From Alienimonas chondri (GTDB lineage: Bacteria; Planctomycetota; Planctomycetia; Planctomycetales; Planctomycetaceae): 44,003 bases of DNA. The stretch covers positions 1-44,003 of the forward strand of contig NZ_WTPX01000024.1 of assembly GCF_013036045.1 (NCBI RefSeq). Direction: 5' to 3'. Under the pieces are notes generated by a model, which was given only the letters and a program-made list of their open reading frames with translations, was not told the origin of the DNA and made no database searches. The stretch's first letter is position 1. Each line of letters opens with the position of its first letter. This document shows positions 22,219 to 22,262 of this stretch, one piece after another. A program made the translations under genes and the position numbers.

Positions 22219-22262
22219 CCGTCAGCAACCCGTCACGCCTCCGTCACCTTTCCGTCACTCCG
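22219..22262. promoter_or_regulatory. Four 11-bp direct repeats CCGTCA(C/G)NNNN
   Basis: Units start at 22219, 22230, 22241 and 22252 with exact 11-bp spacing: CCGTCAG-CAAC, CCGTCAC-GCCT, CCGTCAC-CTTT and CCGTCAC-TCCG. OmpR/PhoB-family regulators bind tandem 7+4-bp half-sites with this period, and the unit is close to the Pho-box half-site CTGTCAT. The array lies 22 nt past the stop of a PhoB-type regulator gene and 114 nt before the desaturase start. It is a strong candidate operator for the desaturase gene. Confidence 0.65.

Follow-up and report, generated by a model that had tools for sequence, protein, structure and literature searches.

What does an exactly spaced DNA repeat do between a two-component regulator gene and a fatty acid desaturase gene of the planctomycete Alienimonas chondri, and which gene does it serve? 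The whole stretch of DNA analysed, here called the window, is 44,003 nucleotides long. On its plus strand CCGTCA occurs at positions 22219, 22230, 22241, and 22252, a step of exactly 11 bases, as the first-pass annotation of this DNA had reported.

The array and its surroundings

The array lies between the gene for an OmpR/PhoB-type response regulator of 270 amino acids (22285..23097, minus strand), the proposed array binder, and a gene for a fatty acid desaturase of 330 amino acids (PF00487; 21112..22104, minus strand), the proposed target. The regulator consists of a receiver domain (PF00072, 5.9e-25) and a Trans_reg_C domain (PF00486, 1.2e-22), which places it in the OmpR/PhoB family. A short histidine kinase gene (286 amino acids, HisKA and HATPase_c; 23094..23954, minus strand) overlaps the regulator gene by 4 bases. 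Since the regulator, kinase, and desaturase genes all run leftward, the minus strand gives the relevant reading of the array: GTGACGG aaag GTGACGG aggc GTGACGG gttg CTGACGG. An alanine dehydrogenase gene (24037-25143) stands upstream of the kinase gene in the window, and is also found near the kinase gene in the same-genus genome G001 and in G021 and G022. Between the convergent hydrolase and desaturase genes, an inverted repeat read by eye, AAGCCGGAGGCATGCCTCCGGCTT (21047-21085), is perhaps a shared terminator.

With up to one mismatch allowed, CCGTCAN5CCGTCA matches three times in the window, every time inside the array, and in 100 shuffled copies of the window the pattern matched 0.42 times on average and at most twice. 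When the 180-bp intergenic region was shuffled 20,000 times with dinucleotides preserved, no shuffle contained any 6-mer four times at one period between 8 and 14; a 6-mer three times at one such period appeared in one of 4,000. The 11-bp repeats are therefore real and well past chance expectation. A genome-wide scan found no second exact array of at least three units in the A. chondri genome (G000; 5.3 Mb, 355 contigs) or in G001. Three further exact two-unit matches in G000 and the near-matches in G001 are located in long stop-free frames, which are weak evidence of coding because the DNA is so GC-rich, and we take these sites, short of proof, to be chance occurrences. A DNA hairpin at the array was rejected, as its folding was no better than that of shuffles (z 0.36). 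The single Rfam match in the window at the gathering threshold is a tRNA.

Conservation upstream of planctomycete desaturases

G001 keeps the four units, almost the whole of the linkers that join unit 1 to unit 2 and unit 2 to unit 3, and the −10 region described below; the two genomes differ upstream of the array and in the linker between units 3 and 4. The regulator gene is followed by the desaturase gene in 14 genomes that were compared, including G000 and G001, and the array is present in 14 of 14 of these intergenic regions. Outside the genus the commonest unit in these adjacent pairs is TGACA, not TGACG.

We scored upstream regions for TGACR repeated four times at 11 bp (maximum score 20) and counted the regions that reached 17 or more. 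We collected 169 upstream regions of desaturase homologs. Their sources were 150 sampled genomes of the order, which all belong to one family, genomes of other families, and paralogs. Three regions shorter than 150 bases were dropped (L083 in G014, L234 in G095, and L255 in G115), and 122 of the 166 scored regions reached at least 17. On the same 166 regions the antisense strand reached a maximum of 16 (four times), a spacing of 12 reached 16 once, and a spacing of 10 and the reversed motif each had a maximum of 15. It had been stated at the outset that the operator reading would be refuted if close relatives lacked the array in front of their orthologous desaturase. What we found there was the array, upstream of 116 of the 139 best desaturase homologs in the window's family, with 19 of the remainder scoring 15-16 and 4 below 15. 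The desaturase upstream regions of G005, G011, G017, and G023 score just 14-16, and the desaturase search at 1e-40 gave no match in G008, G010, G088, G096, and G130, all of which have the regulator.

Beyond the family, the array is present in three of three genomes of family f4 (G027, G032, and G036), while family f5 (G028 and G037) scores 15 with TTACA-type units. In eight genomes of families f2 and f3 one desaturase was compared per genome, and none of them has an array; these desaturases are 42-50% identical and perhaps not orthologs. Among 14 paralogous desaturases used as within-genome controls, 10 score below 15 and one scores 16; the other three, at 17-19 (G121b, G124b, and G166b), suggest an operator common to some desaturase paralogs. 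In a further set drawn from titled records (n = 78 after removal of L434 and L441), which shares part of its sequences with the 166-region set, 41 of the 78 scored regions reach at least 17, with an antisense maximum of 16. Its arrays include records titled Gimesia, Schlesneria, Fuerstiella, and Planctomyces, and Pirellula-titled records carry the TTTTACATATCTTTGACA form. Five desaturases (L451, L459, L465, L471, and L476, from Pirellula- and Pirellulales-titled records and one further planctomycete) are preceded by TTTTAC-type pairs whose units are 11 bp apart, and a −10-like box that agrees at 3 to 5 of 6 positions is found at +58 or +59 in the numbering given below, which indicates that the element extends past the family. 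A rearranged array that does not form four even units precedes the genus g5 desaturases L348 and L350, in the order of two TGACA, a TTTGAC(G/T) approximately two turns on, and later CTGACAC.

Phase relation of the array to a −10-like box

Alignment of 119 non-paralog arrays scoring at least 17 gave the consensus TTGACAnAAsTTTGACA-n6-TGACg-n6-TGACAC, followed by a second conserved block at +58 that resembles TAwAAT, with offsets counted from the first T of the array. A TATAAT-like hexamer starts at +58 in 50 of the 119 arrays and at +59 in 26, compared with a mean of about one per other offset. Lesser peaks at +69 (18) and +47 to +49 (13) are each one unit off the main peak, as would be expected where the best four-unit frame has slipped by one repeat. 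Two exact TGAC units followed by NANNNT at +58 or +59 were found in 103 of 152 sense regions and in one of 152 antisense regions.

The candidate −10 box of the window is TACTGT (22194..22199, minus strand), at +58 from the first T and identical in G001. It matches TATAAT at three of six positions, and the assignment was therefore made from position and conservation. With this box set at −12, unit 1 (TGACGG, 22252..22257, minus strand), farthest from the promoter, is at approximately −70 from the predicted transcription start, unit 2 (TGACGG, 22241..22246, minus strand) at −59, unit 3 (TGACGG, 22230..22235, minus strand) at −48, and unit 4 (TGACGG preceded by C, 22219..22224, minus strand) at −37, over the place of a −35 box; an ordinary −35 box is absent. 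Relative to this predicted start, half-sites about one helical turn apart lie upstream of and over the −35 region, as in tandem operators of the OmpR/PhoB type. A simple sigma-70 scan of 22050-22350 found neither a promoter nor a terminator, which is expected when there is no −35 box. The layout would be that of an activator-dependent promoter. The earlier proposal of an operator-type array with OmpR/PhoB-site geometry in the desaturase promoter is thus supported, and the element is conserved in the family and beyond.

Other predicted targets of the element

A strict two-unit pattern found 67 sites in 62 of the 150 genomes, and the backward pattern found 5. The desaturase gene is downstream in 29 of the 30 loci that were read and, judged by coordinates, in 30 of the 37 others. 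Other strict sites are in G115 (at a contig end, beside the regulator), G131 (at a second desaturase), and G134 and G055 (at RRM genes), and the remaining four of the 67, which have no assigned target, are at G131:C2, G164:C358, G005:C1:3147163, and G073:C5. When 40 genomes were searched with a looser four-unit pattern, 34 sites were found, of which 24 are at desaturases and 10 at other places; the backward pattern gave 5.

The second desaturase is a different PF00487 protein. Its four close copies, all in genus g50, each have an array scoring 16-19 of 20 (18 and 18 in G131, 16 in G072, and 19 in G154), and a −10-like box is present at +58 in the three upstream regions checked; none of five distant copies has an array. 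The identities of the RRM, second-desaturase, pstS-type, and phoU genes were confirmed by Pfam.

Thirty upstream regions of RRM_1 genes, one per genome among the matches listed, contained on the sense strand four exact TGACA pairs at spacing 11 and none at the 14 other spacings between 6 and 20; the antisense strand held two exact pairs overall, none at spacing 11. With one mismatch, 7 of the 30 regions have a pair at spacing 11, against a total of 11 pairs over the other 14 spacings, and in six of these seven a −10-like box starts at +58 or +59. At 1e-20, G000 has no RRM match. At six loci (L358, L359, L361, L362, L363, and L382) a two-unit array with an in-phase −10 box lies approximately 300-700 bases before the RRM gene.

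The sharing of the element between the desaturases and some genes for RRM RNA-binding proteins suggests a cold or membrane-fluidity regulon. The combination resembles the cyanobacterial cold response, in which desaturases are described as cold-induced and RbpA3 as stabilising desaturase mRNA (PMC6789579); rbpA is there independent of Hik33 in Synechocystis. A point against the reading is that, for planctomycetes, the main text of a cold-shock array study of R. baltica (PMC2754498) names no desaturase, and the sole kinase that it names as cold-induced is a serine/threonine kinase.

The neighbouring regulator as candidate binder

An ortholog of the regulator, one per genome, is present in 145 of the 150 order genomes (1e-48; best candidates scored, at most 17 per genome); of the five others, G119 and G114 hold partial copies at contig ends. 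Regulator ortholog and array, or its TTACA form, co-occur in the sampled genomes of f4 and f5, and G029 (family f6) has the ortholog, two array units, and, at +58, a −10-like box. The eight sampled genomes of f2 and f3 have neither, and G003, which is 87% complete, has no ortholog and no array (score 14).

Nearly all window-family regulators that were read have the sequence TR(T/S)(I/V)DNF at the recognition helix, and this helix goes mostly with TGAC-type arrays. The helix TRAPDQF pairs with TTACA-type arrays in four of four cases (G028, G037, L463, and L474). G023 is an exception, with TTAC-type units and a DNF-type helix, and the mixed arrays of G027, G032, and G029 have one TTAC unit each. 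Given these cases, and since the four TRAPDQF examples may be one clade, the helix/half-site covariation is weak.

Together these patterns suggest that the neighbouring regulator binds the array. We considered whether one or more other OmpR-family regulators might instead bind a true desaturase promoter element, with the neighbour a mere passenger. G000 has 27 matches to the regulator, receiver-only ones included. For 72 of 116 family arrays no regulator gene was found within 800 bp upstream, and G098 and G163, both fragmented assemblies, retain the array (scores 18 and 17) with no ortholog found. The single ortholog in nearly every genome, its widespread adjacency to the desaturase, its joint absence with the array from the f2 and f3 genomes, and the covariation, weak as it is, argue against this alternative, which we regard as unlikely. 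The part of the first-pass proposal that assigned control of the desaturase to the neighbouring kinase/regulator pair is thus favoured indirectly, by synteny, co-occurrence, and weak covariation.

The array as a phosphate-type site

A further alternative, raised at the outset, is that the array is a PhoB box that ties desaturation to phosphate supply. Like the Pho boxes of the E. coli PhoR-PhoB system, the array consists of head-to-tail 11-bp repeats with a TGACA/TGTCA core next to a regulator of the OmpR/PhoB family, and the best NCBIfam models are PhoB for the regulator and PnpS and PhoR for the kinase, all scoring far under their cut-offs. Against the PhoB model TIGR02154 (cut-off 296.2 bits) the window's regulator scores 173.5 bits. 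Separate regulators linked to phoU or pst genes score 236-248 bits, likewise under the cut-off: one of 236 bits adjoins phoU in G000 itself, one of 239 bits is directly downstream of pstB in G002, and one of 248 bits belongs to a G049 cluster with a PnpS/PhoR-type kinase, a pstS-type gene, pstB, and phoU. The recognition helix is DVH in these pst/phoU-linked regulators and DNF in the window type, and where phoR, pst, or phoU would be expected beside a PhoB, the window's regulator has a desaturase gene as its neighbour. In E. coli, pstS and phoA have TGTCAT on the sense strand. The array has TGACA there, reversed relative to that orientation, has four units rather than a pair, and is placed at a desaturase gene; the other assigned sites likewise precede RRM and desaturase genes. 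In the upstream regions of pstS-type genes (PF12849) from G002, G013, and G049, the best TGACA pair at 11 bp matches at no more than 8 of 10 positions. CTTAA repeats in G049 (L345, 5560-5860) and CTTCA repeats in G002 (L343, 2950-3260), both at 11 bp and read by eye, may be the genuine Pho boxes of these bacteria. The array resembles PhoB sites in its strict distance from the core promoter (PMC10294691, which also lists the Pho motif). With a better PhoB beside phoU, three pstS-type upstream regions lacking the array, and an orientation opposite to that of E. coli, we find the phosphate reading unsupported and highly improbable.

Assignment of the array to the desaturase gene

The array might also serve the regulator operon itself and be near the desaturase through gene order alone, since the first T of unit 1 is 27 bases past the regulator stop codon. 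It is, however, downstream of the regulator gene, and it remains with the desaturase when the two genes are apart, as in G002, G006, G007, G009, G019, and G024. At the 14 regulator loci that lie apart from the desaturase, no array was found in flanks of 1.5 kb on each side (0.5 kb on one side for L043). Because the array follows the desaturase and separated regulators lack one, it is not an autoregulatory site, and we reject autoregulation as having almost no probability. The evidence supports the array as an operator-type element of the desaturase promoter. Given the shuffles, the family-wide conservation, and the phase-locked −10 box, an origin by chance or as an artefact of low complexity is as good as excluded.

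Relation to known systems and the predicted signal

The second-best NCBIfam model for the window's regulator is that of cyanobacterial RpaB, at 167.8 bits against a cut-off of 330. The TTACA half-site of RpaB resembles the TTACA form found in f5 and in Pirellula-titled records. The kinase Hik33/NblS is described as controlling desB together with membrane fluidity, and RpaB is named as its partner (PMC6789579). The RpaB site HLR1 consists of (G/T)TTACA(T/A)(T/A) repeats with 2 nt between them and therefore has a period of 10 (PMC9241938, PMC11633204), whereas the array has a period of 11 and TGACA units in the window's family, so that it differs from HLR1. Hik33 carries HAMP and PAS domains (PMC6789579), and Pfam finds neither these nor any other sensor domain in the window's kinase.

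The N-terminus of that kinase, read by eye, consists of two hydrophobic stretches separated by a short loop and followed by HisKA, an arrangement that is kept in relatives. In Bacillus, the membrane kinase DesK and the regulator DesR act on a desaturase gene; DesR belongs to the NarL/LuxR type, and the membrane segments of DesK are more numerous. The planctomycete pair is alike in outline, but its output domain is Trans_reg_C and its kinase has two hydrophobic stretches. Kinases with a short membrane hairpin and no sensor domain are thought to sense the membrane itself. As the main targets are desaturases, the simplest signal would be fluidity or temperature, and we infer that the kinase probably responds to membrane fluidity and hence to temperature.

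Proposed mechanism and implications

The DNA itself shows the array, its conservation, its phase with the −10 box, a linkage to the desaturase and not to the regulator gene, and the recurrence of the element before a second desaturase and some RRM genes; the identity of the binder, activation rather than repression, and the signal are inferred. Very probably the array is where a regulator that would adjust membrane lipids lands, and the neighbouring two-component regulator is the most likely candidate. We hold with reasonable confidence the fuller reading, in which the array is a desaturase operator bound most likely by the neighbouring regulator, acting as an activator, while the kinase probably responds to the condition of the membrane. 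In this reading an OmpR/PhoB-family protein, most likely this regulator, would bind the four 11-bp half-sites head-to-tail on one face of the DNA, at about −70, −59, −48, and −37, and bring RNA polymerase to a promoter in which the −10 box is not accompanied by a proper −35 box. Its kinase, with the short membrane hairpin, would probably sense fluidity, and hence temperature, and through it desaturation would be adjusted.

More tentatively, at slightly less than even confidence, we propose that Planctomycetes have their own class-wide membrane-fluidity (cold) pathway. It would be built from a minimal intramembrane kinase, an OmpR-type regulator, and a phase-locked 11-bp array reversed relative to Pho boxes, and would be directed at desaturases and, in some lineages, at RRM proteins that would replace the classical cold-shock proteins. 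The novelty lies in the orientation, the geometry, and the regulon of what is otherwise a tandem operator of the OmpR family. Among the papers listed by a literature search, judged by titles and the beginnings of abstracts, none describes two-component regulation of a planctomycete desaturase or such an array.

Transcription control in Planctomycetes is little mapped, and the analysis adds a regulator with its kinase, an operator whose geometry has been measured, and a predicted regulon of small size. Their conservation is good enough for tests in a culturable planctomycete. The R. baltica array study remarked that RNA stabilisation in the cold may rely on proteins other than those of E. coli (PMC2754498), and the RRM genes are a candidate answer. 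If the proposed reading is true, it would explain how Planctomycetes tune their membrane lipids.
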